Below, piece after piece: positions 2,586 to 50,377 of a stretch of DNA of 64,000 nucleotides. The notes beneath the pieces were generated by a model. That model made no database searches. It saw only the letters and a list, made by a program, of their open reading frames with translations, and was not told the origin of the DNA. Both the position numbers and the translations under genes were made by a program. Each line of letters starts with the position of its first letter. The first letter of the stretch is position 1. Origin of the DNA: Trichocoleus sp. (lineage in GTDB: Bacteria > Cyanobacteriota > Cyanobacteriia > Elainellales > Elainellaceae); the NCBI GenBank assembly GCA_036702865.1, contig DATNQD010000067.1:1-64000 (forward strand). The letters run 5' to 3'.

Positions 2586-2755
2586 CCAGAAGGCTTGAAG
2601 TTCGGGCAGCAGTAAGCCTTTTAAGAGGGGAAGAAGGGAGTTCCACAAAGAATCTGTTGCTTTGCTTCCTTCTCCTGTTTCCAAGCTAGGTTACAGAAAG
2701 GATTCTGGACTGCTATCTTAGGTTGGAAGCACCTTGAACAAAAAGAATAACTTTC

Positions 2756-3484
2756 ATGGGACTGACTTACCAGCGAATTTTGCTGAAGCTGAGCGGCGAG
2801 GCGTTGATGGGCGATCTCCCCTATGGAATCGATCCGAAAGTCGTGCAAAGTATTGCCGAAGAAATAAAAGAAATTTCAGGTCAAGGCGTTCAGACGGCGA
2901 TTGTGGTGGGGGGCGGCAATATTTTTCGGGGCGTTAAAGGTGCAGCCGCCGGGATGGATCGAGCCACAGCAGACTATATCGGCATGATTGCCACAGTCAT
3001 GAATGCCATGACCCTTCAGGATGCGCTGGAGCAGCTTAATGTGCCGACGCGGGTTCTAAGCGCGATCGAGATGCAGGAGGTGGCTGAACCTTATATTCGG
3101 CGGCGGGCAATTCGTCACCTGGAGAAAGGGCGAGTCGTCATCTTTGGGGCAGGATCTGGAAATCCCTTCTTTACCACTGATACCACAGCAGCCCTAAGAG
3201 CCGCCGAGATTAATGCAGAAGTTGTCTTCAAAGCGACAAAAGTAGATGGCGTGTATGACTCTGACCCTTACAAAAACCCGGATGCGCGACGCTATCAGAG
3301 TCTAACCTACGGACATGTTTTAGCTCAAGACTTGCGGGTAATGGATTCCACTGCGATCGCCCTGTGTAAAGATAACAATATCCCAATTATTGTGTTTAAC
3401 CTGTCGGTTGCAGGAAATATCTGTCGCGCAGTAATGGGAGAGCCTATTGGAACGATTGTGGGAGGGTCTTGTGAAATTAGTTGA
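2756..3484 (+). CDS. pyrH: UMP kinase
   Basis: A 242-residue bacterial UMP kinase, which makes UDP from UMP and ATP in pyrimidine synthesis. It belongs to the amino-acid-kinase fold, not the eukaryotic UMP/CMP kinase fold. Seen in the sequence are the N-terminal phosphate-binding strand with KLSGEALMG, the glycine loop [10 protein letters not shown] (about residues 50-59), the GTGNPFF-equivalent [17 protein letters not shown], and the ATP-side segment [13 protein letters not shown]. The length is typical. Its last 14 bases overlap the start of frr, the usual pyrH-frr pairing, so the two are almost certainly cotranscribed and translationally coupled. Confidence 0.97.
3461..3466 (+). promoter_or_regulatory. 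Ribosome-binding site deciding the frr start
   Basis: GGAGGG located inside the pyrH coding sequence, five bases before the GTG at 3471. It favours that GTG over the in-frame TTG at 3447. Confidence 0.8.
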
Positions 3485-4019
3485 CGTTGAAAGTCATATG
3501 CAAAAGGCTGTTGAGGCAACTCAACGTTCCTTCAACACGATTCGCACGGGGCGAGCTAATGTGTCGCTGCTCGATCGCGTCGTTGTGGAATACTATGGAT
3601 CTCCAACTCCATTGAAATCGCTGGCAACTGTCAATACACCCGACGCCAGCACCATCACAATTCAACCCTATGATCGCAATACCCTCAACATTATTGAGAA
3701 AGCGATCAGCCTATCAGACATTGGGTTAACCCCCAATAACGATGGTTCGGTGATTCGTCTGAACATTCCACCTCTGACGAGCGATCGACGGAAGGAACTG
3801 GTCAAAATGACTGCCAAGATGGCAGAGGAAGGCAAGGTATCGATCCGGAATATCCGCCGGGATGCGATTGAATCTGTTCGGAAGCAAGAAAAAAGCGGCG
3901 AACTTTCTGAGGATGAGGCAAGAGACACTCAGGACAGCATTCAAAAACTGACTGACAAATACAGCCAGAAGATTGAGCAAATTCTTGCTGAGAAAGAAGC
4001 AGATATTATGACCATTTAG
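3471..4019 (+). CDS. frr: Ribosome-recycling factor
   Basis: Ribosome-recycling factor, which with EF-G splits post-termination ribosomes. I place the start at the GTG at 3471 (182 residues, [14 protein letters not shown]). GGAGGG at 3461-3466 lies five bases upstream at good spacing, and the family usually begins a few residues before the VE-HM segment and has about 182-185 residues. A longer reading from TTG at 3447 would add eight residues without a ribosome-binding site. The RTGRA-(N)VSLLDR motif and the C-terminal helix [14 protein letters not shown] are as expected. The GTG start lies inside the end of pyrH (14-base overlap). Confidence 0.96.
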
Positions 4020-4315
4020 GCAAGGTAGATTCGATCGGTTAATGAAAGGATTGGATCGGGCTTGGCAAAATAGATGCCCTGATCTGATCCTTTTGTGCTG
4101 GCGCTAGCAATCATGATCAGATTGTTACAGCCTGTCCTGACCTTCCTTGCGTTCGCACATTGCTGGCTCTTGGATACAAACCGATCGCAGGCATTGATAA
4201 TCACTGCCTCATGGTTGAAATCGTGACAGGAAGACCAATGCCGATCGACAATTGAGTGCAGCCCTCTCCAGCGCATAACGCAAACTGGTGTACTTAGGAG
4301 TAAGATTAGAGCTTT

Positions 4316-5449
4316 ATGTATGACTGCATTGTTGTAGGCGCAGGTCCCGCAGGCGGTTCAGCAGCTTATCACCTGGCAAAACGGGGGCGATCGGTCCTCA
4401 TTCTAGAAAAAGAAGCTTTTCCTCGCTACAAACCCTGTGGAGGCGGCGTGTCCCCCCAAGTTGCTCAATGGTTTGACTTTGACTTTACGCCAGCGATTTC
4501 CCTCAAAATTACAGGTATCCGCTACACCTGGAAGATGGCAGACCCTGTCGATAGTCAGCTAAACGCCCTAGAGCCAATTTGGATGGTGCGGCGAGACGTA
4601 TTTGATCACTTTCTGGTGAAGCAAGCTCAGAATCAGGGAGCAGAGCTACGGGAGAATACTGCCGTCAGCGGGATCGAGTTTAAGGGCGATCGATGGCAGG
4701 TCATGACAGCCAATGGTCCTGTGGAAGGACGTTATCTAGTTGCAGCGGATGGTGCAAAGGGGTCGATGGCAAAATGGTTGGGCTTCAAAGACCGAAAGCG
4801 TCGGTTTGCCGGAGCATTAGAAGCCGAAGCCAGTGCAAATGTCGAAGACCCAGAAGTCGCGCATTTTGAGTTTGGCATGATCAAAAATGGCTATATCTGG
4901 AACTTCCCCAAAGCAGAGGGCTATTCGATCGGCGTAGGTACGTTTCGAGGCGGTGAGCCACAAGACTTTAAGAGCATTTTGACAGAATACGCAACGCTGT
5001 TTGGGATCGACTTGCAGAACTGTAAGCAATTTGGGCATCCGCTTTGTCTGTGGGACGGCAATCAGAAACTACATACCCAGAATGCGGTGCTGGCAGGTGA
5101 AGCAGCCTGTGTGGTCGATCCGTTTACAGCAGAGGGAATTCGTCCATCAATGTTTACTGGGGTGAAAGCAGCAGAGGCGATCGACGCCGCACTGGGGGGT
5201 GATCTCGACGCACTGGATCGGTACACCGAAACAGTAAACCGCGAGTGGGGAGATGATATGGTGTGGGCACAGCGAATCGGCAATCTTTTCTACCGAATTC
5301 CGAGCTTTGGTTATAAGGTTGGGATCAAGCGTCCTTCTGCAACTGAGCGAATGGGGCAAATTCTCTGTGGTCGCTTGCGCTATCGAGATGTGGCAACCCG
5401 CGCTCTGAAGCGTTTAACCACAGGACTTATTCCTGGCATGGGAAGCTAA
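4316..5449 (+). CDS. Geranylgeranyl-reductase-family FAD protein
   Basis: A 377-residue FAD-dependent oxidoreductase of the geranylgeranyl reductase family (ChlP and archaeal GGR relatives), which saturate isoprenoid double bonds. The N-terminus has GAGPAGGSAAYHLAKRG (residues 8-24) and the family hallmark PRYKPCGGGVSP (about 36-47) with the conserved cysteine. A second FAD motif, GEAACVVDPFTAEGIRPSM, lies near residue 260. It is not the chlorophyll enzyme ChlP proper, whose N-terminal motifs differ. The real substrate is unknown; a quinone or carotenoid-type isoprenoid is possible. It follows frr by about 300 bp on the same strand, a gene order I recall from other cyanobacteria. Confidence 0.85.
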   Translation: MYDCIVVGAGPAGGSAAYHLAKRGRSVLILEKEAFPRYKPCGGGVSPQVAQWFDFDFTPAISLKITGIRYTWKMADPVDSQLNALEPIWMVRRDVFDHFLVKQAQNQGAELRENTAVSGIEFKGDRWQVMTANGPVEGRYLVAADGAKGSMAKWLGFKDRKRRFAGALEAEASANVEDPEVAHFEFGMIKNGYIWNFPKAEGYSIGVGTFRGGEPQDFKSILTEYATLFGIDLQNCKQFGHPLCLWDGNQKLHTQNAVLAGEAACVVDPFTAEGIRPSMFTGVKAAEAIDAALGGDLDALDRYTETVNREWGDDMVWAQRIGNLFYRIPSFGYKVGIKRPSATERMGQILCGRLRYRDVATRALKRLTTGLIPGMGS

Positions 5450-35004: not shown

Positions 35005-35676
35005 ATGGTAGCCTATCCTTCCGCCCCCTGGCAGCTTCAGGGATACGCAATCCAAACGGTACATTTGCTGGACATCGATCGCATTCGTCCACTTGTGCCA
35101 TCAAAGCTGGAAATTGTTCCTGTTTTTCCGGGTAAAACCCTGGGTGGCATCTATCTTGCTACTTACCAAGCGGGTTCTGCTTTGATCTATAACGAACTCA
35201 TTGTCGTCACGGCCCTGGTTTCAGAATCCAGCAAAGTCGGTGGCTGGGTGTCTCATATCTATGTCGATAACCCCGATTCGATCGCCGGAGGACGAGAAAT
35301 TTGGGGTTTACCAAAAGAATTGGCACAATTTACCTGGCAATCTGCACCAGGACAGAATCAGCCGTTGAGTGTGCAGGTAACGCAAGGCGAGGATGTTCTC
35401 TGTCGCTGTCGCTGTACTTGGCAACTGCCTGGCTGGCAGCAAAAATTATCTGCGCCTGCCTTTAGCCTCAAGGAAGACAAACTCCTGATCTTTGATGCTC
35501 ATACGGATAGCCGAGTTCAAATTGTAGGCGTCGATTTAGAAGTTCCCCCAGACAGCCCATTCGGCTGGCTCAAACTAGGACATCCCTGGCTCGGTGTTGC
35601 TGCGAATCCCTTAAATCTGCGGGTTGATGCGCCTAGAGTGCTCAAAGAACAGCCCCAAACCTATAGCTATTCTTGA
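35005..35676 (+). CDS. Acetoacetate decarboxylase-like protein
   Basis: A 223-residue protein of the acetoacetate decarboxylase-like family. Landmarks are PSKLEIVPVFPGKTLGGIYLA at the start, NELIVV, and GREIWGLPKELAQF, in which the lysine is the Schiff-base candidate. The length is normal. Members act on beta-keto acids or related compounds, but many have other activities. It overlaps the hybrid histidine kinase gene by 10 bases tail to tail. Confidence 0.8.
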   Translation: MVAYPSAPWQLQGYAIQTVHLLDIDRIRPLVPSKLEIVPVFPGKTLGGIYLATYQAGSALIYNELIVVTALVSESSKVGGWVSHIYVDNPDSIAGGREIWGLPKELAQFTWQSAPGQNQPLSVQVTQGEDVLCRCRCTWQLPGWQQKLSAPAFSLKEDKLLIFDAHTDSRVQIVGVDLEVPPDSPFGWLKLGHPWLGVAANPLNLRVDAPRVLKEQPQTYSYS

Positions 35677-38600
35677 TTGGCTCTGCTCTGCATGACTTCT
35701 GCCGCGACTCGCAGTAACTCGCTCGGTTCGATCGGTTTTGTGAGATGTCTAAGAAAGCCAACGGCAAGGGCTGTTTGCTGATCCAACTCGCCTGCATAAG
35801 CGGTCAAAGCAATGGCTCGTAAGGAACCGTTTTTGAGCGATAAGGATTTGAGTTGTCGCATCAACATATACCCGTCTACTTCAGGCATCCCAATATCGCT
35901 GATTAGCAGGTCAAATTCGGAGCGGGTAATGGCTTGAATCGCTGCTTTAGCAGAGCTAACACTCGTTGTGATTGCCCCGTTTTGCTCTAGCGTATAAGCA
36001 ACAAGTTCCCGGCTATCTGCTTCATCATCCACAATCAGCACTCGTAGATTTTGTAAGTTGCGCTGGATCAGCGGATCAATTGCTCCATCAGCGTTAGGGG
36101 AGGAAGGTTGATTTATCGCAGGGTTAGCTGCTTTCATCAGCGGCAGACGCACAACAAAGGTTGCACCTTTTCCTTCACCTGGGCTGGCAGCATGAACCGT
36201 TCCTCCATGGAGTTCAACCAGGTGACGCACGATCGCCAAGCCTAGCCCTAACCCACCAAACTTACGTGTTGTCGCTCCATCTTCTTGCCGAAAGTAATCA
36301 AAAATATAGGGTAGGAAATCAGGTTCGATCCCTTTACCATTATCTGTAACCCGAATTTGGGCTTGATGATTCAGGCATTCCAGCTTGATCTCAATCTTGC
36401 CATTTGCCTCAGTAAACTTGACAGCATTCGACAAGAGATTCCAGACAATTTGCTGAAGGCGGTTTGGATCTCCCATCACAGAGCCAGAGATCGGGTCAAA
36501 CAAGGTTTTAATTTCAATTGATTTTGCCTCAGCCGCCAATCTCACCGTTTCGATCGCCGCTTCAATCGTTGTTTGTAGATTAACTGACGCAATATCAAGG
36601 TTCAGTTTGCCGCGCAAGATTCGAGAAACATCCAGCAAATCTTCAATGAGCTGAGTTTGCAGTTTCGCGTTGCGCTCAATAATTTCTAAAGCGCGATCGG
36701 CGGCCTGTCCATCGAGCTTACCGCTGCGAAGTAGCTTCGACCATCCCAAAATTGGGTTAAGCGGAGAACGCAGCTCATGCGATAGCACTGCAAGAAACTC
36801 ATCTTTAATGCGATTTGCGGCTTCTGCTTCTGTTCTGGCGTTTTGCTCTGCTTTATACAAGCGCATATTCTCGATCGCCACAGATGCCATTTGAGCTAAC
36901 TGTACCAAAATGTCTGCATCTGCTTCGCTAAATTCACCTTCGTATTTGTCAGAGAGTTGGATTAAGCCAAAGTTTTGCCCGTCTCGTCGGAGCAGCGGCA
37001 CGGCAAGCCAGCCTCGGAAGGGAGGGTGTTTGTCTGTATTCTGACTAAATCTTCGCCATCGGGGGTGTGCTTCCAGATCTGCTTGAGTTAGCCGTACGGG
37101 ATGATTAATCTCTAGCATCGTGGCATAAATGTCTGAATCATCTGGCTCAGTGCTGTGGTTCACCCAGTTGGCATACTTATCTGAAAGAGACATGGTATGA
37201 ACCGCATGCTGCCAATCTTGCTCAAAGACTAGCGTTGTCACCGCCTGATGAGAACCAATAATGGTGCGGGCTTGCTCCGTAATCACTTGAGCGACTTCTT
37301 GATCAGAGAATACAGAGTTAATAGTGGGGAATGCCTCTGTTAAGCCGCGCAGTTGATCCGCATACTGCTGCGATCGGGCAAGTAGCTGTTCTCGTTCTGC
37401 CGTAGATTCTTTATGGAGCGTCACATCTGTGGCAATGCCGTCCCAAAGAACCGACCCATCAGCGAGTTTTTCAGGACGTGAAGCAAGTTGTACCCACTTT
37501 GTCTGTCCAGAGGGCATCACATAGCGCCCTTCCCACTGAAGCGATTCTCCTGTTTCAGCAGAGTGATTGATGGCGTCTTGCAGTGATTGGCAATCGTCCA
37601 GGTGAACTAAGTTCCAGAGAACCTGACTATCCTGTTGAAACACCTCAGGTTCCAGTTCAAACAAGCTGCGGCAACTTGGACTGATATAGCGGATCTCGTC
37701 CGTGCCATCGGCATAGCGGATGTAGCGAGAAATGACTCCAGGAACGTTGTGGGCAAGCCTCTGGAATCTCGCTTCACTATGGCGGAGAGCCTGCTCTGCT
37801 TTCGCTTTGTCAACAGCAATCCAGAGCCGATCGGCAACTTCTGTCATCAGCGCAATTTCTTCTGCTGTCCAGTTTCGAGGCTGAACATGGTTGAGCGCCA
37901 ATACTGCAACAAATTTTCCTTGTTTGATCAGTGGAACTGCCAGGAAAGCACAAATTTCTCCAAATTGAAACAGAGTTGCCTGGTTAGAAGTGCGGCTGTC
38001 AGCTTCAACATCACTGACGACAACCGTTCTGCCCTGCTGTAATTCAGTCAGCAAATCAGAGCCAAAGCTGGCAATTGCATAATTTCCAGTGATATCTGCA
38101 ACCCCATTGCAGTAGTTATAAATAGCTGTAAGGTAAGTTTCGCTGCTGTCAATTTCTGCATAAGAGCAGCGTGTCACTTTAAAGTGTTGTCCGATCAGCG
38201 ATGTTGCAACCCTAATCACTTCTCTGGGTTCATTTGCAGTACGGATTGCATCATTGAGCGTGAGTAGAATTTGCTGCCGCTGCTCATTCAATTTACGTTC
38301 ACTGATGTCTGATGTTGTCCCAACAATTCGGGTTGGGTTGCCAGCCTGATCGCGAATCACAAACCCCTGATCTAACACATAAATATAGCGATCGTCTTTC
38401 GTTTTGACTCGATATTCATTGGCATATCGATCGCTTGATGCCAGACAGCGCTGCACCGATTCATAAGACGCCGCGAGATCATCAGGATGCACCAGAGCCA
38501 CCCACCATTCCGGGGTTGGGTCACTTTCCTCAGGTAAATAACCAAAAATACGGGTTAGCCCTTCGGTTCTTTCCACCTGCTGAGTTGCCATATTCCAGTC

Positions 38601-39542
38601 GTAAATAAGACAGTCTACGGCAGCGGCGGCTAGCTCAAATCGCTCTTTTTCCAATCGTAGGGCAGCTTCTACCTGCTTACGCTCTGTGATATCAAATGCG
38701 GTGCCTAAGATCTGTTTTGCTTGACCATCCGGAGTGCGACTGAAGACAAGTTCTCGACCACTAAACCATCGCCAATCGCCAGTCACATGACGCATTCGAT
38801 ACTCGTTCTCTAGAACCTCGCCGTCTTTCAGTGTCCGGAACTGAGCAACATGTTTTGGAAACAGCGCCAAATCTTCAGGGTGAACCAGCCTGGGAAAAAG
38901 CATTGCTCCCATTGCTTGAATCTGCTCTGCCGTGTATCCCAAGATATGGGTAACATGCTGATTCACAAAAATGTTTTGCTGCTCAATCAAGTCATAAACG
39001 TAGAGAATTCCTGGAATCGTATCCGTAATTTGCTGTAAAAGCCGCTGGCTCTCTCTCAATCGCGCTTCATTTTGCTGACGGACAATTTCGTTTTGCTTTG
39101 TTTCGGTAATATCGCGAAAATAGACGGATAGCCCCTGGGGAGAGGGATAAGCTCGAACTTCTAGCCAGATACCGAGATTGCTGGCGAATGATTCAAACTC
39201 GATCGTGCTTTGTGTCTGGGCTGCACGTCGTAGCTCCTGCTCAAAGGTTGTCCCGCTAGTAGACTGAAAAACCTCTCGCCAAATTTCTTTACCTAACAGC
39301 GCAGCGCGATCGGTTCTGAGGAGTCTTGCCGCTTCTCGATTGATATAGGTGAGTCGCCAGTCGCGATCGAAGGCGAGAAATGCGTCGGTAATTCGCTCTA
39401 GAACGTCATGAATCTGCGCCTCATAGGGCTGCTGTAAAGGTGGGTTTCCTGCTGCAAGAATTTCTCTGCCCGCCATTGGTACTTCTGATCCAAACGGGTG
39501 AGGTTCTCCATGGCTAAAAGGTTGTTCTTGAGGAAACTGCAT
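35667..39542 (-). CDS. Hybrid sensor histidine kinase with PAS and GAF domains
   Basis: A 1291-residue soluble hybrid kinase. Approximate order: PAS (45-150), PAS with PAC (165-285), PAS with PAC (295-410), GAF (420-570), PAS (585-700), GAF (720-880), histidine phosphotransfer HisKA with FLAVLSHELRSPLNPILGWSKL (about 910), ATPase (about 1015-1130; NLLSNAVKFT, GKGIEPDF, GGLGLGLAIV) and a C-terminal receiver (RVLIVDDEAD, DIGMPEVDGY, LTKPIEP). All catalytic boxes are intact. No membrane helix is evident, so the signal is cytosolic; a GAF-bound bilin is possible, but I see no conserved chromophore cysteine motif. The partner is unknown. Confidence 0.92.
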   Translation of the reverse strand: MQFPQEQPFSHGEPHPFGSEVPMAGREILAAGNPPLQQPYEAQIHDVLERITDAFLAFDRDWRLTYINREAARLLRTDRAALLGKEIWREVFQSTSGTTFEQELRRAAQTQSTIEFESFASNLGIWLEVRAYPSPQGLSVYFRDITETKQNEIVRQQNEARLRESQRLLQQITDTIPGILYVYDLIEQQNIFVNQHVTHILGYTAEQIQAMGAMLFPRLVHPEDLALFPKHVAQFRTLKDGEVLENEYRMRHVTGDWRWFSGRELVFSRTPDGQAKQILGTAFDITERKQVEAALRLEKERFELAAAAVDCLIYDWNMATQQVERTEGLTRIFGYLPEESDPTPEWWVALVHPDDLAASYESVQRCLASSDRYANEYRVKTKDDRYIYVLDQGFVIRDQAGNPTRIVGTTSDISERKLNEQRQQILLTLNDAIRTANEPREVIRVATSLIGQHFKVTRCSYAEIDSSETYLTAIYNYCNGVADITGNYAIASFGSDLLTELQQGRTVVVSDVEADSRTSNQATLFQFGEICAFLAVPLIKQGKFVAVLALNHVQPRNWTAEEIALMTEVADRLWIAVDKAKAEQALRHSEARFQRLAHNVPGVISRYIRYADGTDEIRYISPSCRSLFELEPEVFQQDSQVLWNLVHLDDCQSLQDAINHSAETGESLQWEGRYVMPSGQTKWVQLASRPEKLADGSVLWDGIATDVTLHKESTAEREQLLARSQQYADQLRGLTEAFPTINSVFSDQEVAQVITEQARTIIGSHQAVTTLVFEQDWQHAVHTMSLSDKYANWVNHSTEPDDSDIYATMLEINHPVRLTQADLEAHPRWRRFSQNTDKHPPFRGWLAVPLLRRDGQNFGLIQLSDKYEGEFSEADADILVQLAQMASVAIENMRLYKAEQNARTEAEAANRIKDEFLAVLSHELRSPLNPILGWSKLLRSGKLDGQAADRALEIIERNAKLQTQLIEDLLDVSRILRGKLNLDIASVNLQTTIEAAIETVRLAAEAKSIEIKTLFDPISGSVMGDPNRLQQIVWNLLSNAVKFTEANGKIEIKLECLNHQAQIRVTDNGKGIEPDFLPYIFDYFRQEDGATTRKFGGLGLGLAIVRHLVELHGGTVHAASPGEGKGATFVVRLPLMKAANPAINQPSSPNADGAIDPLIQRNLQNLRVLIVDDEADSRELVAYTLEQNGAITTSVSSAKAAIQAITRSEFDLLISDIGMPEVDGYMLMRQLKSLSLKNGSLRAIALTAYAGELDQQTALAVGFLRHLTKPIEPSELLRVAAEVMQSRANQE

Positions 39543-40261: not shown

Positions 40262-42043
40262 ATGCCGAATCAAGGAATTCAGCTTTCTTCTGACCAGTCC
40301 TTCGCTGATAACAGCGTTCTGCTGCATCATGCCAAACAGCAGCAATGGCTTTTATTTCGCGAGCCGATCGCCCTTTATCAAGCATCGCAGCCTGAAGAAG
40401 TCATCCCTCTACTGGAAGCAATTGAACAACGGGTTGATGCAGAACAGCTTTATGCAGCAGGTTTTTTGGCTTACGAGGCAGCGGCGGGCTTCGATCCAAA
40501 TTTGGTTGTGCGATCGAGTAATGATGCATTTCCGTTAGTCTGGTTTGGGCTATATCAATCACCAACACCCGTTGAACTGCCTCAGTTTAAGAAGTCATCT
40601 TGTCCGACTTTGGATTGGCAGTCCTCTATCACAAACGACACTTATCAAGCTGCAATTCATCAGATTAAAAACTACATTCGATCTGGTGATACTTATCAGG
40701 TCAATTATTCATTTCGGCTGCGATCGGACTGTAATTTCGATGCATGGAATCTGTTTTTGCATCTCGTTCAGGCACAAGGAGCAGGATACAGTGCTTATGT
40801 GCAAACGCCGGATTGGTTGATCTGTTCTGCTTCACCGGAATTGTTTTTTACGCTAGAGGGAAATGAACTCATCTCGCGTCCGATGAAAGGCACTGTGGCA
40901 AGAGGACTGTGGCAAGCGCAAGATGATCAGCAAGCAAGCTGGCTACGCCAATCAACCAAAAATCAGGCTGAAAATCTGATGATTGTGGATATGGTTCGCA
41001 ATGATATGGGACAAATTGCAGAGACGGGTACAGTGAAGGTTCCCGAACTATTCGAGCTAGAGCAATATCCCACACTCTGGCAAATGACAAGTACAGTTCA
41101 ATGTACTGCAAAAGCCAGCTTTACAGAAATGATGCGATCGATGTTTCCCGCTGCTTCAATTACGGGAGCGCCTAAAACTCGAACAATGGAAATTATCAGT
41201 GAATTAGAAGATAGTCCACGCAAAATTTACACGGGAAGCCTTGGATTTTTAGCGCCTAAACGGAAAGCTCAGTTTAATGTTGCCATTCGTACTTTGTTAA
41301 TCGAGCGGCAGAAATCTACAGCTGAGTATGGCATTGGTGGCGGCATTGTCTGGGACTCAGCAGAAGATACTGAACTTGCAGAGTGCTACACCAAAGCAAA
41401 AATTCTGACGCAATCCCTCCCAGAGTTCTCACTTCTGGAAACGCTACTCTGGACACCAACCGAAGGCTATTTTTTATTAGATTATCATCTGGCTCGATTA
41501 CAAAATTCTGCGGCTTATTTTTCCTATTCGATCGATCTAGAAGCAATTCGTCAAGCGCTGATTTCGTTCCCGATTCATCTCACTGCTCCTCACAGAATTC
41601 GTCTTCTGATTTCCCAGCAAGGCAAGATTGTCATTGAACAGCAACCCTGGATTCAAACTGTCCAAACCGTTCGACTGGCGTTAGCCAAAATACCGATCGA
41701 CTCCACGAATCCATTTCTGTATCACAAAACAACGCATCGATCGATTTATGAACAGATGAAGCAAACCTGCCCCGATGCGGAGGATGTCCTGCTCTGGAAT
41801 GAACGAGGCGAGATTACCGAGTCCTGTATCGCGAATGTCGTGATTGAACAAAACGGAGAACTGTTCACACCGCCGATCGAATCTGGATTATTGGCTGGAA
41901 CCTATCGCGCTTATTTGTTAGAACAACGCAAAATTCAAGAAAAAGTTATTTCACTGACTGATCTCCTTAGCTGTACCCAAATCTATCTCATTAATTCTGT
42001 GCGGAAGCTAACTCTTGCTGAACTTCAGCCCTCCGTCTCTTAA
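40262..42043 (+). CDS. pabB: Fused aminodeoxychorismate synthase / lyase (PabB-PabC)
   Basis: A 593-residue fusion for 4-aminobenzoate (folate) synthesis. Residues about 1-375 form a chorismate-binding enzyme (component I): KGTVARG, MIVDMVRNDMG, GTVKVPELFELE and MFPAASITGAPKTRTMEII are typical. Residues about 390-593 form an aminotransferase class IV aminodeoxychorismate lyase, with LLWNERGEITESCIANVV, PIESGLLAGTYRA and a candidate PLP lysine in FLYHKTTHRS. A glutamine amidotransferase (PabA) would be encoded elsewhere. It is convergent with the primase-like gene 24 bp away. Confidence 0.88.
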   Translation: MPNQGIQLSSDQSFADNSVLLHHAKQQQWLLFREPIALYQASQPEEVIPLLEAIEQRVDAEQLYAAGFLAYEAAAGFDPNLVVRSSNDAFPLVWFGLYQSPTPVELPQFKKSSCPTLDWQSSITNDTYQAAIHQIKNYIRSGDTYQVNYSFRLRSDCNFDAWNLFLHLVQAQGAGYSAYVQTPDWLICSASPELFFTLEGNELISRPMKGTVARGLWQAQDDQQASWLRQSTKNQAENLMIVDMVRNDMGQIAETGTVKVPELFELEQYPTLWQMTSTVQCTAKASFTEMMRSMFPAASITGAPKTRTMEIISELEDSPRKIYTGSLGFLAPKRKAQFNVAIRTLLIERQKSTAEYGIGGGIVWDSAEDTELAECYTKAKILTQSLPEFSLLETLLWTPTEGYFLLDYHLARLQNSAAYFSYSIDLEAIRQALISFPIHLTAPHRIRLLISQQGKIVIEQQPWIQTVQTVRLALAKIPIDSTNPFLYHKTTHRSIYEQMKQTCPDAEDVLLWNERGEITESCIANVVIEQNGELFTPPIESGLLAGTYRAYLLEQRKIQEKVISLTDLLSCTQIYLINSVRKLTLAELQPSVS

Positions 42044-42066: not shown

Positions 42067-44052
42067 CTAAACCTGTTGCTCCAACCATTCCAACCACTCC
42101 AACAATTCCGTTTCACTCAACATTGCCCGACTCGGCTTACCAAACTGAGTGAATAGGCGATCGCGTGCTTCTGCCGCAGTCCATTCAAGCCGTCGTAACT
42201 GAAGTGAGATTGCTGCCAGCACATCTGATAAATCTGTTCTTGTAACTGGTTTTGCTGCACTTTTGCGCTGCTGTTCTTCCTCTTGAGGCTTTGCATTCAG
42301 CGGATCTGCTGGAATTGGGGGTTCTGTGGTTGAACTGGCTCGTAAGGATGGGCTTTGCAAGCGATCGAGATCCAGCACGTTCGGATTCATTTCTGCCCAG
42401 GCAGTTGCTTCAGCCACCAAGATCGGATCACCGGATGCTAAAAACTGCTGCATTCGGGCAAGTTGCCCCTGCTGCTCAGACTCTTCTCGAATGCGCTGCT
42501 GCTGTACTTTTGCCTGCGCTGCTGCCGCCTGGCTGGCTTCCATCCAAGCTGAAATATCAAACAGCGTTGGTTGGCTGTAGGGATGAGCTGGGAGATGACC
42601 GGAAGATTGACGAGGTGCCATATTACCGCCTGTGAGTTGTGAATTGAAAGAGTTTCGATCGCTAGAAGCTTTGTTTTGTGAGGAATTACCGTCTGAGAGA
42701 GGGAATAAGCTTGTAAGATAAGCCCGGCTCGATGCACCCTCAGAGCGATCGAACGGGCTATCTTCAAATGAAGCTGGGGGGTGTGGGGGGTTTTTCACAG
42801 GGGTGGAGTTTTCCACAAGATACTTAGGATGCCATAAATCGCGATGGCGGTAGAGTGAACCCCCACCAATTCCATAGCTGACTAGCATCTGAAAGCGAGC
42901 CGTTGCTGCTGCAGGAAGTGAATTCTTATCCAATAAGTCAGCGATTGCTAAGCGAATTCGCTCTCTTGCCCCTTCCGATTGCCGCTGATTCCAGGTTGGT
43001 AGTTGAGCAACCGCCTCATCAACCGACAACTCTTCTGGCTTCGGTTGATATTTTCCTTTTGGATCACCGTAGGGAAAGTAGTGGCTGTTTTCAATACACC
43101 TTGCCCATTCCGTCGCACGGTCTTCAATCTCATGCTGATGCCGACACCATTGCTGATATCCCGGCAAAGATTTTGCGGTTGCCACAATTTTGTCTACTAA
43201 TGCCTGTCCGGTCAGCGGCACATCACCTGTCAAAATATGATGAAAAATATAGGAACGCATCGTAATTCGACCGAGCAGACGATTCGTTTGACCGTAATCT
43301 GTCCAGCCGAGTTCAATTTCTGCATTCAGATCATTAATAAACTTATCTGCTTTACCAGAAAAGAAATATTGCTTTCGTCTTGCCTGTTTCAGAATCTGTT
43401 TCAAGCATTGACGGGTAACATCATTTCTACTCTGGATAATCTGCCATTGATCAACAAATGTTTGCTGATTTCCCCAAACAGGTTGAAAGTCCCCATTTAA
43501 TAAATAGGAACCTGTTTGCATTGGTAAACGATGAGCATTGAAAAGTGTTGGATGACCTTCAGTAACGTAAGGTTTGGGATTAGGAAAAAGTTCTAAAACT
43601 CCTGGTTTAATCGTAAAACCCGCATTTCCCAAAATGACTGAGGTTGCTGCTGCCAGAACCCAGGAACTTTGGGTTTCTTGAAAGGGAAAATAAAGGTGAA
43701 TTCCGCCACTATCACTTGAGGTACAAGCCACATAAGCCACCAACCCGATCGCCTCAAGTGCTGCCACAATTCGATCAATTGCCAGTGGATCTTGTCTGGG
43801 ATGATAGGGGCTATTAGTATCAATATCCAGCACACAATATTGAGTTTGTGAACCAAATCGAACACCAAATAAATAAGCACTCTGAATTAAAGCCCGATCA
43901 GACAACGGATAACGAGTTTCAGTTTGCCAATCTGGTTTCTGTTTCGGTTCAGGATGTTTCGCGTAAATATAATCAAACCGATGTGGAAATAGCGCTAGAA
44001 ATGCGTTGCTGCACTCTTGAATATAAGTAGAAGGGGAAAGTGTTAAAGCCAT
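42067..44052 (-). CDS. Primase-like (AEP-type) replication protein
   Basis: A 661-residue protein with motifs of the archaeo-eukaryotic primase superfamily near its N-terminus. The metal motif is LDIDT with two aspartates (near residues 77 and 79), and the second motif SGGIHLYF has histidine near 120, followed by LELFPNPK (third acidic motif, similar to the TOTE-type primases). About residues 220-340 and the C-terminal half are helical and glutamine-rich, and the C-terminus has ALRLRRLEWTA-like text I cannot assign (LQLRRLEWTAAEARDRLF is the last clear segment). GGAGGGTG stands before the ATG at 44050-44052. No helicase domain is visible. It faces the iteron region at 44100-44600, so a replication initiator or primase role is likely. 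Confidence 0.6.
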   Translation of the reverse strand: MALTLSPSTYIQECSNAFLALFPHRFDYIYAKHPEPKQKPDWQTETRYPLSDRALIQSAYLFGVRFGSQTQYCVLDIDTNSPYHPRQDPLAIDRIVAALEAIGLVAYVACTSSDSGGIHLYFPFQETQSSWVLAAATSVILGNAGFTIKPGVLELFPNPKPYVTEGHPTLFNAHRLPMQTGSYLLNGDFQPVWGNQQTFVDQWQIIQSRNDVTRQCLKQILKQARRKQYFFSGKADKFINDLNAEIELGWTDYGQTNRLLGRITMRSYIFHHILTGDVPLTGQALVDKIVATAKSLPGYQQWCRHQHEIEDRATEWARCIENSHYFPYGDPKGKYQPKPEELSVDEAVAQLPTWNQRQSEGARERIRLAIADLLDKNSLPAAATARFQMLVSYGIGGGSLYRHRDLWHPKYLVENSTPVKNPPHPPASFEDSPFDRSEGASSRAYLTSLFPLSDGNSSQNKASSDRNSFNSQLTGGNMAPRQSSGHLPAHPYSQPTLFDISAWMEASQAAAAQAKVQQQRIREESEQQGQLARMQQFLASGDPILVAEATAWAEMNPNVLDLDRLQSPSLRASSTTEPPIPADPLNAKPQEEEQQRKSAAKPVTRTDLSDVLAAISLQLRRLEWTAAEARDRLFTQFGKPSRAMLSETELLEWLEWLEQQV

Positions 44053-44206
44053 CAAACACCCTCCAATTCATGATCTTTAAAGTAGGACACAATACGAGTA
44101 AACAAGTTCGGCAAATTACATCAACCCAAAAAGGAATTTAGTTCAATTGTTCTCTCTAAACTTTCGATCGCATCTTTCTTACTGCTCCAATCAACTGCCT
44201 GAGAAA

Positions 44207-44286
44207 GTTTACGATCCTCCAAAGCCGATCGACCGAAGCTGTTTACGATCAGATTGATCAAGATCCTTAGTGCTGTTTACGTTTAC
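44207..44286 (+). repeat. GTTTAC repeats, 34-bp spacing
   Basis: GTTTAC at 44207, 44241 and 44275 are spaced exactly 34 bp apart, and a fourth follows at 44281. The first two extend to GTTTACGATC. They may be binding sites for the HTH protein or an initiator. Confidence 0.55.
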
Positions 44287-44331
44287 TGAAACCTATGCAA
44301 TATAGGAGTTTCAAGCATTTAAAAAAATAGT

Positions 44332-44464
44332 TTGCCCCCCCCGATCGGGATCATTGCCCCCCTCGATCGGGTTTTCTGCCTTGTAGGTTCGGGATCATTG
44401 TCCCACCCGGTCGGGGTAATAACATGGGGATAAGCAGGGATTTTGTCCCTAGGGTTCGGGTAGG
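44332..44464 (+). repeat. 22-bp-period iteron array
   Basis: An 18-bp core TTGYCCCNNNNNNTCGGG recurs at 44332, 44354, 44398 and 44443. A degenerate copy (CTGCC...GTTCGGG) sits at 44376, and the position at 44420 is filled by a poorly matching unit. Starts are therefore 22 bp apart (44332, 44354, 44376, 44398), the typical two-turn spacing of initiator-binding iterons. Examples: TTGCCCCCCCCGATCGGG and TTGTCCCACCCGGTCGGG. Confidence 0.65.
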
Positions 44465-44465
44465 T

Positions 44466-44586
44466 GTTTACAGGCTGAAGTCATTGGTATACATGAGCTT
44501 TGGTAACAATGAGCAGCACAAAAAGCAGTAAACAAATGGTACATCCGTTTACTCGCGTTTACTGTTTACACCTGTTTACTGTTTAC
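44466..44586 (+). repeat. Second GTTTAC cluster
   Basis: GTTTAC at 44466, 44547, 44557, 44564, 44574 and 44581, with an inverted GTAAAC at 44528-44533. The last five copies lie 7-10 bp apart, closer than the first group. Seven to ten bp is near one helical turn, as expected for repeated binding of one protein. The cluster ends 56 bp before the HTH gene. Confidence 0.5.
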
Positions 44587-44641
44587 TCAAATTACTCAAA
44601 CTTTTTACTCAAACTCAGACAGGCTCGAATTCACGCTAGAT

Positions 44642-46612
44642 CTACTCCAGTTCCAGTACTTCCCGCAGTCGGGCAGCATCTTCTGGTTTAATGCTGCGCT
44701 TGCCTCGCTCAATCAAGCTGATCCACATTTTGGTACGATCGAGCCGTTCCCCCAGATCTGCCTGGCTCCAACCTTTCTGTTCTCTGGCAGCTTTGACTTC
44801 CTCACCCGTGAGTGCAGAAGACTGGCTTTTGGTTTTGGAGGCGATCGGTCTGCTGTTGACGGTGATAGTCTGTTTGCGTCGCTGCAGTTTAGCGATCCCG
44901 TCGGCAATTTCTTTGGGTGGATAGATATGTAGACGGCTGTTGCGAAGCTGCTCCCAAAATCCTTTCGGTCTTCTGTTGCTGCCACGTCCACCTTCTGTCC
45001 AATCAGGCTGAATTTCTGGGGGATAGGTCACTGGATCGAATTCGACAGTCCAGCCTGCCTCAAACAGAATTCGCAGATCGTTATCCCAGGTTGTAGCGAG
45101 TTCGCTTCTCAGGTCGCGGTCTTGTTGGGCAACTCGCAGTTTCTCGGCTCCATAAGCGACTTCCATCAGGGTTGCAGTCATTAACACGGGATAGGCACTC
45201 ACCCGAATCTTAAACGATAGCCAAGCCAGCATCCGAGCCGCTCCTTCACTGTGCTGCCAGACTCGTGTAATCGTTTGCAGTAGCGTTTTAGAAAGAACCC
45301 CATATTGATAGAAAGCTTTCCCTTCCTCCGAGCCGCGTTTATTCAGAAAATACTTAGCCCACATACCCGCCCGACAGCGAATCGTTAAGCCCGTACACTT
45401 AATTCCACCAAAAATATCGCGTTGCCCGTGATAGCCGATCGCCACTTCCCACAGGCGGCTTTTTTCTACATAGAAATTCTCGATGCTTCCCTGCTGCGAC
45501 CAATGAAGAAACGTCAGAATTTGGGCAGGTTGTTCTGCCAGCCGCTCAATGATTTTTAGCCGCTTTTCTTTTGTAATATCCTTGCGCTTATCTAAGCCCA
45601 GGTAGGCAGCAATTTGAGCATCGTTGATAATAAACTCTTCTTCCCAGGGGCGATCGAGGGCGGTGACATGAGCCGCGTAAATTAGATGAATGCAGGCAGC
45701 CCGAATATCAAACGTTTCAATCACTGCGAGTGCTGCTTCGCCTGCGAGTGCTTCGGGGTATTGTTCTTCAGGATTATCTGTCACCCAAAAAATTAGCTTG
45801 CCGCGTCCATCTTTTAAGGTGCTGGTGTAAGCCAGCTTACCGTCATCATCGGCTTGCCAGAGTAGATCAGTTTTTTGCGTTAGAATGTTGACGCTTTCCC
45901 AGAGAATTTTACAGGTCGCAAAGTTATTTGTGATCCCGTTAACAAATAAATCAGGGCTGGTGACTGGAGCAGCTGGAACTGCCTTTTTTCCTAAGCCTGC
46001 TAGCCATTCCAGCTCTTGCAATGATTTATTGGAAAGGTCATATTTGCTGATAATTGACTGGGTTGCCTGGTCAATATAAACACGCAAAACGGTCGAAAAA
46101 TTCGATTTTAGGGAGTCTGATGCCTCGTCAAAAATGTAGCGGTAGAGCATCTCTAGCTGCGCTTGATGATTCATTGTCTGAAGCGTTTCCTGGCTCAGGC
46201 TTTGCTCCATCTCGGCAACTGCCATGTGCGTCAAATCGTGCCACATATAAGAGGCAGAAGTTTCCCAAAAATTTAGAGCTTTCAGCAACCGATCGACCTG
46301 CTCTTCGGTGGTGGCAGTTGGTTTCGTACGAGCGTCGATCGATCGCGTTAGCGCAACTGTTGGCTGCCCGTCTTTGCTTTGCTTAATCTCTAAATGAGGA
46401 GAATTGAGCTTGCGCGGTTCAATCTCGCCTGCTCTCAGTCCGGCTTCAACTCGCTGCCGATAAGCTTCAAGTAAATGCTGCGAAACCTGGATCGCCACTA
46501 ATTTGAGAATGGGCGACTGCGATAACTCCTCTTTAAACTTCTGCCGCCACTCATCGGGAATTGCAGCGAGAAGCAAAGGACGGTCAAGGAATGCAGGTCG
46601 ATCGGGTGTCAT
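44642..46612 (-). CDS. Large protein with C-terminal XRE helix-turn-helix
   Basis: A 656-residue protein. The last 55 residues are a clear XRE/Cro-type DNA-binding domain: TGEEVKAAREQKGWSQADLG, then ERLDRTKMWISLIERGKR, with KPEDAARLREVLELE at the end. The first 600 residues match no family I know; they are mostly helical and include ACIHLIYAAHVTALDRPWEEE, YLGLDKRKDITKEKRLKIIERL and EKSRLWEVAIGYHGQRDIFGG. I recall similar cyanobacterial proteins but no function. It is leftward, like the primase-like gene, and the iterons lie between the two. A replication or copy-control regulator is my inference. Confidence 0.6.
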   Translation of the reverse strand: MTPDRPAFLDRPLLLAAIPDEWRQKFKEELSQSPILKLVAIQVSQHLLEAYRQRVEAGLRAGEIEPRKLNSPHLEIKQSKDGQPTVALTRSIDARTKPTATTEEQVDRLLKALNFWETSASYMWHDLTHMAVAEMEQSLSQETLQTMNHQAQLEMLYRYIFDEASDSLKSNFSTVLRVYIDQATQSIISKYDLSNKSLQELEWLAGLGKKAVPAAPVTSPDLFVNGITNNFATCKILWESVNILTQKTDLLWQADDDGKLAYTSTLKDGRGKLIFWVTDNPEEQYPEALAGEAALAVIETFDIRAACIHLIYAAHVTALDRPWEEEFIINDAQIAAYLGLDKRKDITKEKRLKIIERLAEQPAQILTFLHWSQQGSIENFYVEKSRLWEVAIGYHGQRDIFGGIKCTGLTIRCRAGMWAKYFLNKRGSEEGKAFYQYGVLSKTLLQTITRVWQHSEGAARMLAWLSFKIRVSAYPVLMTATLMEVAYGAEKLRVAQQDRDLRSELATTWDNDLRILFEAGWTVEFDPVTYPPEIQPDWTEGGRGSNRRPKGFWEQLRNSRLHIYPPKEIADGIAKLQRRKQTITVNSRPIASKTKSQSSALTGEEVKAAREQKGWSQADLGERLDRTKMWISLIERGKRSIKPEDAARLREVLELE

Positions 46613-46747: not shown

Positions 46748-49700
46748 ATGACTCATCCCTTCCTCGCTCGTCTTCACAGCCCTGATTGTCCCGTCATTGT
46801 CTTCGATGGCGCAATGGGCACAAATCTCCAGGTGCAGAATTTGACTGCGGCAGATTTTGGCGGCGCAGAGTATGAAGGATGCAACGAATACCTGGTGTTT
46901 ACCAAACCGGAAGCTGTCGCGAAAGTTCACCGAGATTTTCTGGCAGCCGGAGCCGATGTGATTGAAACCGATACCTTCGGTGCTGCTTCGATCGTCCTGG
47001 CAGAGTATGACCTGGCGGATCAGGCATATCAACTGAATAAGGTGGCAGCGGAACTGGCAAAGCAATGCGCCGCAGAGTTTTCGACCCCAGAAAAGCCGCG
47101 CTTCGTTGCTGGTTCAATCGGCCCCACGACAAAACTTCCAACACTTGGACATATTGACTACGACACGATGAAAGCCTCCTTCGCTGAGCAGGCAGAGGGC
47201 TTGTTTGATGGTGGGGTTGATCTGTTTATTGTGGAAACCTGTCAAGATGTGCTGCAAATTAAAGCAGCGTTGAATGCGATCGAAGCGGTCTTTGCGAAAA
47301 AGGGCGAACGCCGTCCGCTAATGGTATCTGTGACGATGGAAACCACAGGCACAATGCTGGTTGGCTCCGATGTTGCGGCAATGCTGACGATTCTAGAACC
47401 CTACCCGATCGATATTCTGGGGCTGAACTGTGCTACTGGCCCCGATCGGATGGCAGAACATATTAAGTATCTCTCTGAGCATTCGCCGTTTGTGATCTCC
47501 TGTATCCCCAATGCCGGAATCCCTGAGAACGTTGGCGGTCATGCTCACTACAAGCTGACTCCGATGGAACTGCGGATGGCACTGACGCGCTTTGTGGAGG
47601 ATTTGGGCGTACAGGTGATTGGGGGCTGCTGCGGGACTCGCCCTGACCACATTCACCAGCTGGCAGAAATTGGGGCAGCGCTGAAGCCGAAACAGCGTCC
47701 GATTCGAGAAAGCGTTCTGGAACTGACTGGAGCCAATCAAGCCGAACATCCAGTTCGTCCTCCCCTGCACTATGTCCCCTCAGCGGCATCGATTTATTCT
47801 GCGCAACCTTACGAGCAGGACAATTCTTTCCTGATTATTGGTGAACGCCTCAACGCCAGTGGCTCGAAGAAATGCCGGGATCTGCTCAACGCTGAAGATT
47901 GGGATGGTCTGGTGGCTCTGGCTCGGGCTCAGGTGAAGGAAGGCGCACATGTACTGGATGTCAACGTCGATTATGTTGGGCGTGATGGTGTCCACGATAT
48001 GCACGAACTCGTGTCCCGTCTGGTGACAAACGTTAACCTCCCTTTGATGCTTGATTCCACCGAATGGCAAAAGATGGAAGCAGGGTTAAAGGTGGCAGGC
48101 GGAAAGTGCTTGCTCAACTCCACGAACTACGAGGATGGCGATGAACGCTTCTTTAAGGTGCTGGAGCTTGCCAAGGAATATGGTGCAGGGGTTGTAGTCG
48201 GAACGATCGATGAAGATGGCATGGCAAGAACTGCCGAGAAAAAATTTGCCATTGCTCAACGTGCCTATCGCGATGCGCTGGAATATGGCATTCCGGCTCA
48301 CGAAATCTTTTACGATCCGCTGGCTCTGCCTATTTCAACCGGGATTGAGGAAGACCGCGAAAACGGCAAAGCGACGATCGAAGCAATCCGCATGATCCGG
48401 CAAAACCTCCCCGGAGTTCACATTCTGCTGGGAGTCTCCAACATTTCGTTTGGTCTGAGTCCGGCGGCTCGGATGGCGCTCAACTCGATGTTCTTGCACG
48501 AAGCAACGGCAGCAGGCATGGATGGGGCGATCGTCAGTGCAGCAAAGATTCTGCCGATATCGAAGATTGATCCGAAACATCAGGAAGTCTGTCTCCAATT
48601 AATTTACGATCAGCGTCAGTTTGAAGGCGATGTCTGCGTTTATGACCCGCTGACCGAACTCACCAAGCTGTTTGAAGGAGTCTCTGCGAAAGATGCCAGA
48701 GCCAACAAAACTGCCACTGCTGATCTGCCAATCGAAGAACGCCTGAAGCAGCATATTATCGATGGCGAAAGAATTGGGTTAGAAGATGCCCTGGCGATCG
48801 CGCTAGAACAATATCCACCGCTCACCATCATCAACACCTTCTTGCTCGATGGCATGAAAGTTGTGGGTGAACTGTTTGGCTCCGGTCAAATGCAGCTTCC
48901 TTTTGTGCTGCAATCGGCTGAAACAATGAAAGCAGCCGTGGCTTACCTGGAACCCTACATGGAGAAGCAGGAGTCGGGCAATAACTATAAGGGATTGGTG
49001 ATCATTGCGACGGTGAAGGGCGACGTTCACGACATTGGCAAAAACCTGGTGGATATCATCCTGACTAACAACGGCTATAAGGTGATCAACCTGGGGATCA
49101 AGCAGCCTGTTGACAACATCATTGATGCCTACAACGAACATAAGGCAGACTGCATTGCCATGAGTGGCTTGTTGGTGAAATCAACCGCCTTTATGAAAGA
49201 AAACCTGCAAGTGTTCAATGAGCGAGGCATCTCAGTTCCGGTGATTTTGGGTGGTGCAGCCCTGACGCCTAAATTTGTCTATGAAGATTGCCAGAATACC
49301 TACAAAGGCAAGGTCGTTTATGGCAAAGATGCTTTCTCCGATCTTCATTTCATGGATAAGCTGATGCCTGCTAAAGCGGAGGGCAATTGGGATGACCTGA
49401 AAGGCTTCCTCAACGAGTCTGAGGCAGAAAACGGCAAAGCTGCGATCGCGGTAGAGGAATCAAAGCTATCCGATTCGGCTGTGGCTGAACCTGCTGAAAT
49501 TGATACTCGTCGCTCGGAGGCAGTCCCGATCGATACTGATCGACCCACGCCGCCTTTCTGGGGCACAAAGGTTTTGCAGCCGCAAGATATCCCGATCGAT
49601 GAACTGCTGTGGAATTTGGACTTGCAGGCGTTGATTGCCGGACAGTGGCAGTTCCGCAAGCCCAAAGAGCAGAGCCGCGAAGAGTATGACGCATTCCTGA

Positions 49701-50377
49701 CAGAGAAGGTCTATCCGATTCTGGAGCAGTGGAAGCAGCGCGTTCTAGACGAAAATCTGCTCCATCCCCAAACTGTCTACGGCTATTTTCCCTGTCTGGC
49801 AGAAGGAAATTCCTTGCTTCTCTATGATCCTGCTGTGATTAGTCAGGGCATTGATCATCAGGCTGCAACGCCGATTGTCACGTATCACTTCCCGCGCCAG
49901 AAGTCTCTGCGCCGTCTCTGTATTGCCGATTTCTTCTTGCCGAAAGAGAGTGCTCAGCCCCAGCAATATGATGTCTTCCCCATGCAGGCAGTGACCGTTG
50001 GTGAGATTGCCACTAAATTTGCCAAGCAGCTATTTGACTCCAATCAATACACGGATTATCTCTACTTCCACGGGTTTTCCGTACAGATGGCGGAGGCACT
50101 TGCTGAGTGGACTCATACGCGCATCCGGCGAGAACTGGGCTTTGGTGCAGAAGACCCTGCCTCAATTCGAGATATTCTGGCACAGCGATATCGTGGCTCT
50201 CGCTACAGCTTTGGTTATCCGGCTTGTCCCAATATTCAAGATCAGTACAAGCTGCTGGAACTGCTAGGGGCTGAGCGGATTAGTCTGCACATGGACGAAA
50301 GCGAACAACTTTATCCGGAGCAGTCCACCACGGCGATCGTGGTCTATCACCCTGTAGCGAAGTACTTCAGCGCCTAA
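46748..50377 (+). CDS. metH: Cobalamin-dependent methionine synthase
   Basis: A 1209-residue methionine synthase that transfers the methyl group of 5-methyltetrahydrofolate through cob(I)alamin to homocysteine. Homocysteine domain (1-330) with zinc cysteines C228, C294 and C295 ([16 protein letters not shown]); pterin domain (about 355-610) with [16 protein letters not shown] and [11 protein letters not shown]; cobalamin cap and binding domain (about 650-895) with DVHDIGK at 759-765 (D759-H761-G764) and [14 protein letters not shown]; reactivation (AdoMet) domain at about 960-1200. Length and motifs are normal, so B12 is needed. A flavoprotein gene follows 15 bp later. Confidence 0.97.

Follow-up and report, generated by a model that had tools for sequence, protein, structure and literature searches.

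Two genes and a repeat-bearing gap

The window, that is, the whole stretch of DNA analysed here, comprises 64,000 nucleotides of a contig from the cyanobacterium Trichocoleus sp. At 42067-46612 it carries two minus-strand genes, P0002 and P0001, on either side of a 586-bp gap that holds two classes of repeats. The features of the locus are:

40262..42043, plus strand: ORF ending 23 bp from the P0001 end, which we take to resemble an aminodeoxychorismate synthase
42067..44055, minus strand: P0001, 662 aa, Prim-Pol-like partner, with an alternative ATG at 44052
44207..44286, minus strand: four GTAAAC boxes between array and P0001 (44207, 44241, 44275, 44281), with another at 44098
44277..44326, no strand: AT-rich stretch (72% AT) directly past the last iteron, a candidate unwinding element
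44332..44461, minus strand: 22-bp iteron array of 19-bp units starting at 44332, 44354, 44376 (weak), 44398 and 44443
44466..44471, minus strand: lone GTAAAC box inside the conserved element TTTCAGCCTGTAAACA, immediately before the array
44528..44586, minus strand: dense cluster of six GTAAAC boxes (starts 44528, 44547, 44557, 44564, 44574, 44581), adjoining the P0002 end
44642..46612, minus strand: P0002, 656 aa, likely iteron-binding initiator, upstream of P0001 on the same strand
46748..50377, plus strand: metH, 135 bp from the P0002 start, assigned through a TIGR02082 match on a 77% identical fragment

A sequence-only reading had placed a repeat array between a primase-like gene and a gene with a C-terminal helix-turn-helix (HTH), and P0001 and P0002 were found to flank the gap as described. 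It had also proposed an 18-bp core with four good copies and a degenerate one at 44376. Exact copies of the core TTGYCCCNNNNNNTCGGG lie at all four named starts (44332, 44354, 44398 and 44443); a fifth, at 38315, falls within a coding ORF. If one mismatch is tolerated, the 64 kb contain five matches, as compared to a mean of 0.46 and a largest count of 3 in 100 shuffles. In the 5.93-Mb whole genome the exact core is present six times, four of them within the array gap, and a reversed control pattern once. Repeated 8-mers give the same picture: the gap contains 65 pairs, and 200 dinucleotide shuffles averaged 7.2 pairs and never exceeded 22. The 19-position matrix used to score the units was derived from 11 units in the relatives at loci L143-L147, the window being left out. 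The five units, in order of their starts, score 20.9, 21.8, 12.3, 20.7 and 17.4 bits, the degenerate copy being the weakest. Apart from the array, scores above 12 bits occur at only two places in the 130,566-bp contig, 19213 and 38315. The exact match at 38315-38332 is solitary, lies within a large ORF (35667-39542) and is probably due to chance.

The 22-bp spacing proposed earlier holds from 44332 to 44398 and fails at the last step, which is 45 bp long; the steps are therefore 22, 22, 22 and 45 bp, with one slot near 44420 lacking a unit. The same slot is empty in L143, where the step is 44 bp. The array itself also stands as described, but the minus strand gives the better reading of its units (matrix consensus ACCCGAACCTGGGGGACAA), and a second class of repeat, the 12 GTAAAC boxes, had been missed. 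These boxes, counted as GTAAAC or GTTTAC, amount to 20.5 per kb in the gap, whereas the rest of the window holds 22, or 0.35 per kb. The six-box cluster could be aligned with five relatives. The likely origin is thus ordered as boxes, element TTTCAGCCTGTAAACA, array and AT-rich stretch, and, as in iteron replicons, direct repeats about 21-23 bp apart lie in a gap adjoining an initiator-like gene. By composition, the stretch past the iterons is a candidate for the site of unwinding: AT content in the first 50-bp windows past the last unit is 64-74% for the window, L143, L145, L146, L147 and L357, and the arrays of the window and its relatives, at 30-60% AT, fall below the flanking AT-rich stretch. 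An Rfam scan of 40-48 kb returned no matches, and a tRNA search of the window found none.

P0002, P0001 and their kin

P0002 is divided into an N-terminal helical part (residues 1-210), a core (222-568) and a C-terminal XRE-type HTH (601-656). Its Pfam match is HTH_31/HTH_3 at 603-655; Rep_3 was not matched, and no families other than HTH ones and BTAD appeared at E up to 1. A model built from 67 sequences reached a pLDDT of 82.8 and a pTM of 0.62, as compared to a pLDDT of 36.7 for the single-sequence model. The sole Foldseek match at E up to 0.001 was 5tbf_A, domains 2-3 of RctB (E 3.3e-4; TM 0.22 by query, 0.45 by target), and Foldseek TM-scores were modest throughout (0.22-0.24 by query, 0.45-0.47 by target). 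In a second fold comparison the top match was 2nra_C, the R6K pi protein with iteron DNA (Z 11.0 over 227 residues, rmsd 4.1, model residues 222-568), and RctB followed with Z of 9.8 (over 242 residues) and 9.3. Most remaining structure matches are XRE domains that align with residues 599-656. Because the core matches pi and RctB and residues 599-656 match XRE domains, P0002 is predicted to combine an initiator core with an extra C-terminal HTH, and the predicted model suggests the tandem winged-helix fold of pi and RctB. A BFVD fold search with P0002 gave nothing at E up to 0.001, and tblastn against phages was likewise empty.

This arrangement invites comparison with the R6K pi/RepE iteron plasmids and with the Vibrio chromosome 2 origin and its initiator RctB, which share the regular direct repeats, the adjoining AT-rich stretch and the predicted initiator core. 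RctB acts on two unlike site classes, 12-mers and 39-mers (PMC6090056, PMC7858055), and the gap likewise holds two classes. Unlike these initiators, P0002 has a long N-terminal part and a further XRE domain at its C-terminus, lacks a Rep_3 match in Pfam and is followed by a distinct rep/primase gene, which is swapped from one module to another.

P0001 had no Pfam match at E up to 1, nor did it show the DUF3854 and helicase domains of CyRepA1. Its C-terminal 100 aa resemble the slr1353 family, scoring under the family cut-off. The Prim-Pol family PF09250 was detected in four of the 23 P0001-type proteins aligned, with a best E of 0.0017, and is absent from P0001 itself; no match to a PDB sequence was better than E 1.9. 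Residues D77, D79, S113, S114, G118, H120 and E155 are invariant in the P0001-type alignment and resemble the catalytic motifs of Prim-Pol, the archaeo-eukaryotic primase fold. P0001 is therefore likely to be primase-like, as judged from its sequence, and its homologues occupy the rep position on plasmids.

Neither gene looks decayed. P0002 has no private deviations in 432 columns that are otherwise invariant among 13 relatives, and the P0001 N-terminus has none in 333 columns otherwise invariant among 22. Among the five members of its own clade, the window shows the largest number of private changes (30), followed by L143 (28). Both proteins thus appear intact. Orthologues of P0002 (E up to 1e-150) are present in seven of 291 genomes sampled across the class, counting the host genome. 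The host genome, G000, carries further P0002-like or P0001-like genes at C81:139108-140937, C81:170332-172188, C31:24162-25373 and C18:19059-20240; the two on C81 lie 31 kb apart and are therefore not paired as in the window.

CnfR and PatB are regulators of nitrogenase genes and a master switch for cyanobacterial nitrogen fixation. The most surprising result of the analysis is that the P0002 core is homologous to proteins of their architecture, with 36-43% identity over P0002 residues ~208-655 and a C-terminal XRE domain common to both. At loci L172, L186, L167 and others, two 4Fe-4S motifs accompany a P0002-type core and a C-terminal XRE domain, which is the CnfR/PatB architecture. The L172 protein adjoins a cytochrome oxidase (cox) operon and a nitrogenase-associated gene, and patB lies with coxBAC (PMC3141674). 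Such ferredoxin-type proteins are probably CnfR/PatB, as judged by architecture and neighbours rather than by comparison with a named CnfR sequence. P0002 differs from them in that no ferredoxin family was found at its N-terminus, where they carry the 4Fe-4S part, and in its association with an array and a rep gene. Overall, N-terminal 4Fe-4S families were found in 34 of 67 P0002-type proteins (the alignment holds 67 sequences from 79 loci; the locus set kept 80 of 122 relatives), and the ferredoxin motif in 33 of the 85 rows of a family tree. One side of a branch with SH-aLRT 100 holds these 33 rows and five from Okeania, Trichodesmium and Hydrocoleum (38 rows), and the rep-linked rows lie on the opposite side in several groups. 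Because the 85-row tree was made by a quick method with midpoint rooting and drew long-branch warnings, it does not establish a direction from initiator to CnfR. Loci L154, L157, L162 and L166 encode P0002 relatives for which no ferredoxin motif, rep gene or strong downstream array was found; they may represent a third role of the family, a chromosomal one. A literature search largely confined to non-subscription journals found nothing linking CnfR/PatB with replication initiators or plasmid replication.

Related modules and the partner of the repeats

Matches to P0002 were found in 42 plasmid records and to P0001 in 66. Six plasmid regions were opened, and in five a P0002 relative directly precedes a P0001-like or CyRepA1/DUF3987 rep gene: the next gene is P0001-like in AP017311, AP018204 and AP017309, an annotated CyRepA1-family plasmid replication protein in NC_019691, and a DUF3987 protein in NC_020051. 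In the sixth, NZ_AP017564, the P0002 relative has no adjoining rep gene. A ParB-type gene stands directly before the P0002 relative in NC_020051 and two genes before it in AP017311, and parA/parB-like genes lie near by in L143. In further genomes, P0002/P0001-type pairs are tandem or divergent. The repeat arrays in all five rep-linked plasmid gaps exceed each of 200 shuffles, so that the earlier suggestion of iterons of a plasmid-type origin gains support from five regions with the order HTH gene, array and rep gene. Matching repeats also recur elsewhere: the near relatives L143-L147 (65-76% identity) carry the same GTAAAC boxes and 22-bp units before a rep gene, and L357 (73% identity), outside the matrix set, has ten boxes and four units at steps of 65, 22 and 22.

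In a broader set, 20 of 22 gaps exceed all 200 shuffles in repeated 8-mers, and in a second set all 11 do, the window included. The two gaps without excess are L141 (pSYSG) and L142 (plasmid D of ATCC 29413), beside which no P0002-type gene was found. In pSYSG of Synechocystis PCC 6803, the gap in question lies before the first of two P0001-like ORFs, 3591-5318 (35%) and 1696-3288 (31%), which are candidate rep genes; the Rep of this plasmid is called unknown in PMC10899382. A two-class layout recurs in the plasmid relatives, pairing a short box with a longer unit that is often GC-rich, and its letters vary by subfamily (TGATTACA with TCTAGAACCCC, TGAGACAA with CTCCGTATC, TGAGTACA with AAGCTATT). 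A distant blastn search of the gap against plasmids found nothing. In viral contigs, a pattern search with alignment A1 matched 99 stretches, none of them a relative, and the 15-mer AGTAAACAGTAAACA gave at least 120 matches, of which 80 loci were compared and encode neither P0002 nor P0001. The same 15-mer is present in three of 60 genomes including the host; the G019 and G049 loci encode neither protein within 2-3 kb.

The repeats follow P0002 and not the rep gene. The same repeats are found with reps that look unrelated, P0001-like in the window and L143-L145 and CyRepA1-like in L146, L147 and L357. Across modules, motif similarity correlates with identity of the HTH protein when rep identity is controlled for (partial Spearman 0.40, permutation p 0.0005; 28 modules, which are not independent because L144/L145 and L146/L147 are near-copies), while its correlation with rep identity given P0002 is 0.16 (p 0.08; the 24 modules with a P0001-type rep). 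Left out of the 28 were L132 (HTH gene cut), L143 (rep cut), and L141 and L142 (no P0002 gene). Contrary cases are three of the 65 pairs with HTH identity above 0.5, whose motif cosine is below 0.05, and L041, whose motif similarity to L134 and L135 is 0.23-0.26 despite an HTH identity of 0.26. Such co-variation is the pattern expected of a protein and the sites it binds; it would also result from joint transfer of gene and gap, and linkage alone could make the repeats follow P0002 if the two move together. Since the repeats follow P0002 rather than the rep, and since its model matches pi and RctB, P0002 is the likely iteron binder, in preference to the primase-like P0001.

Among the replication proteins of large cyanobacterial plasmids are CyRepA1 and CyRepX, and the accessible parts of the two sources make no mention of iterons or an HTH partner for either (PMC10899382, PMC10079941). 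CyRepA1-type proteins can take the rep position after P0002 relatives; P0001 differs from them in its lack of a Pfam family at E up to 1. CyRepA homologues are also reported on 80 of 145 cyanobacterial chromosomes, with their function left open (PMC10899382). Our search of the mostly non-subscription literature on cyanobacterial iterons found no description of a P0002-type module, nor of the P0002 family as initiators.

Chromosomal setting and interpretation

Gene content indicates that the contig is chromosomal, as the sequence-only reading had supposed, since metH, ndhD, ndhF, ctpB, ictB and uvsE lie on it. The module takes up the interval between the gene at 40262 and metH, leaving 23 and 135 bp at its two ends, and a scan of 10 window ORFs plus the module's neighbours found no par, integrase or other plasmid genes beside it. 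When 1.5-kb flanks of metH were compared in 29 relatives, and those of the 40262 gene in 14, none showed the neighbours that these two genes have in the window. An argument from an empty target site was dropped, the genus being represented by the host genome alone. In Okeania hirsuta (L189), a truncated metH ORF at 2368-4688 adjoins a P0002 relative; the arrangement differs in orientation and subfamily, and a link between metH and the module as such was set aside as chance.

A second stand-alone P0002/P0001 module, in divergent form, was found in another genome, at 7168-11592 of L121 (G023:C6:422000-440000). Its contig of 4.26 Mb also bears dnaA and metH. The module is flanked by a dehydroquinate-synthase-like protein with an O-methyltransferase and by a CAAX-type protease, and none of six neighbours scanned is a par or integrase gene.

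With a probability of roughly 0.77, we read 42067-46612 as a plasmid-type iteron replication module that now resides in the chromosome, with P0002 as the likely iteron binder. The basis is the array and boxes, their conservation beside P0002 relatives, the exchange of the rep with the same repeats kept, the chromosomal gene content and the absence of decay. The modest TM-scores, the many XRE domains among the structure matches, the missing Rep_3 match, the lack of plasmid genes among the ORFs scanned beside the module, the empty blastn search of the gap, the P0002 relative on NZ_AP017564 with no adjoining rep, the possible effect of linkage and the high number of private changes within the clade speak against it. 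On a plasmid, the pi/RctB-like core and the XRE domain of P0002 would bind the two site classes, 22-bp iterons and GTAAAC boxes; binding would open the AT-rich stretch, and P0002 would then recruit or license the downstream replication protein, P0001 here or a CyRepA1-type protein in other modules. These steps of binding, opening and recruitment by P0002 are inferred. Most likely, the module reached the chromosome when a plasmid, or just its rep segment, integrated.

The module may be a silent relic, an integrated plasmid or rep segment that is carried along with its origin off; we hold this to be possible but lean against it. One array slot is empty, one unit is weak, and no par genes were seen beside the module, but L143, with parA/parB-like genes near by, has the same empty slot, and the genes show no sign of decay. 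An active second origin, firing in the chromosome either alone or upon failure of DnaA, seems unlikely. Both module genes are intact and a stand-alone module also exists in the dnaA- and metH-bearing chromosome of G023. There is also precedent in a dnaA-less Synechococcus elongatus whose replication start moved to the origin of an integrated plasmid and in cyanobacteria that start replication at several sites (PMC7198777). Against this, the host has dnaA, on another contig (C36), which rules out a dnaA-less chromosome, and the GC skew of the window makes no clean switch. Cumulative skew dips near 46 kb and equally low near 30 kb, with a change of gene orientation there; on this ground the skew was not taken to mark a DnaA-type oriC.

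P0002 could instead be a CnfR-like activator with the repeats as its operators for P0001, a reading we find rather improbable. Its relatives are annotated as XRE regulators, and the related CnfR/PatB are transcription activators (PMC8510180). Yet P0002 relatives precede two types of rep, have par genes beside them on plasmids and come with long arrays. Strong arrays (z >8) in the downstream 800 bp accompany nine of 10 rep-linked rows, six of 17 other rows and only four of 35 ferredoxin-type rows, as compared to one of eight, one of 17 and none of 37, respectively, upstream; at the lower bar of exceeding all 60 shuffles, the downstream counts are 9/10, 11/17 and 16/35. Autoregulation by P0002 and initiation may both be true. 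It is very improbable that the contig represents a large plasmid or a mis-join, as the division of the genome into 90 contigs might allow, given that 39 of 40 relatives have a match to metH (mostly one full match), that ndhD, ndhF, ctpB, ictB and uvsE lie in the window and that chromosomal-type genes flank the module on both sides. A more far-reaching proposal, that selection keeps the module as a DnaA-independent second origin (it lies beside metH, with the same form in G023) and that CnfR/PatB arose from the same initiator family, is improbable as a whole.

If the preferred reading of a plasmid-type module is right, these results offer a predicted initiator family, together with its sites and two exchangeable rep partners, for large cyanobacterial plasmids, whose Rep proteins are described as largely unknown in PMC10899382. 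The locus would also provide a natural case of a plasmid-type module in a dnaA-bearing chromosome, in which the question of DnaA-independent or multiple origins is directly testable. Finally, CnfR/PatB-type proteins would be placed in a plasmid-initiator-like family, which would explain their core and suggest a mode of DNA binding.
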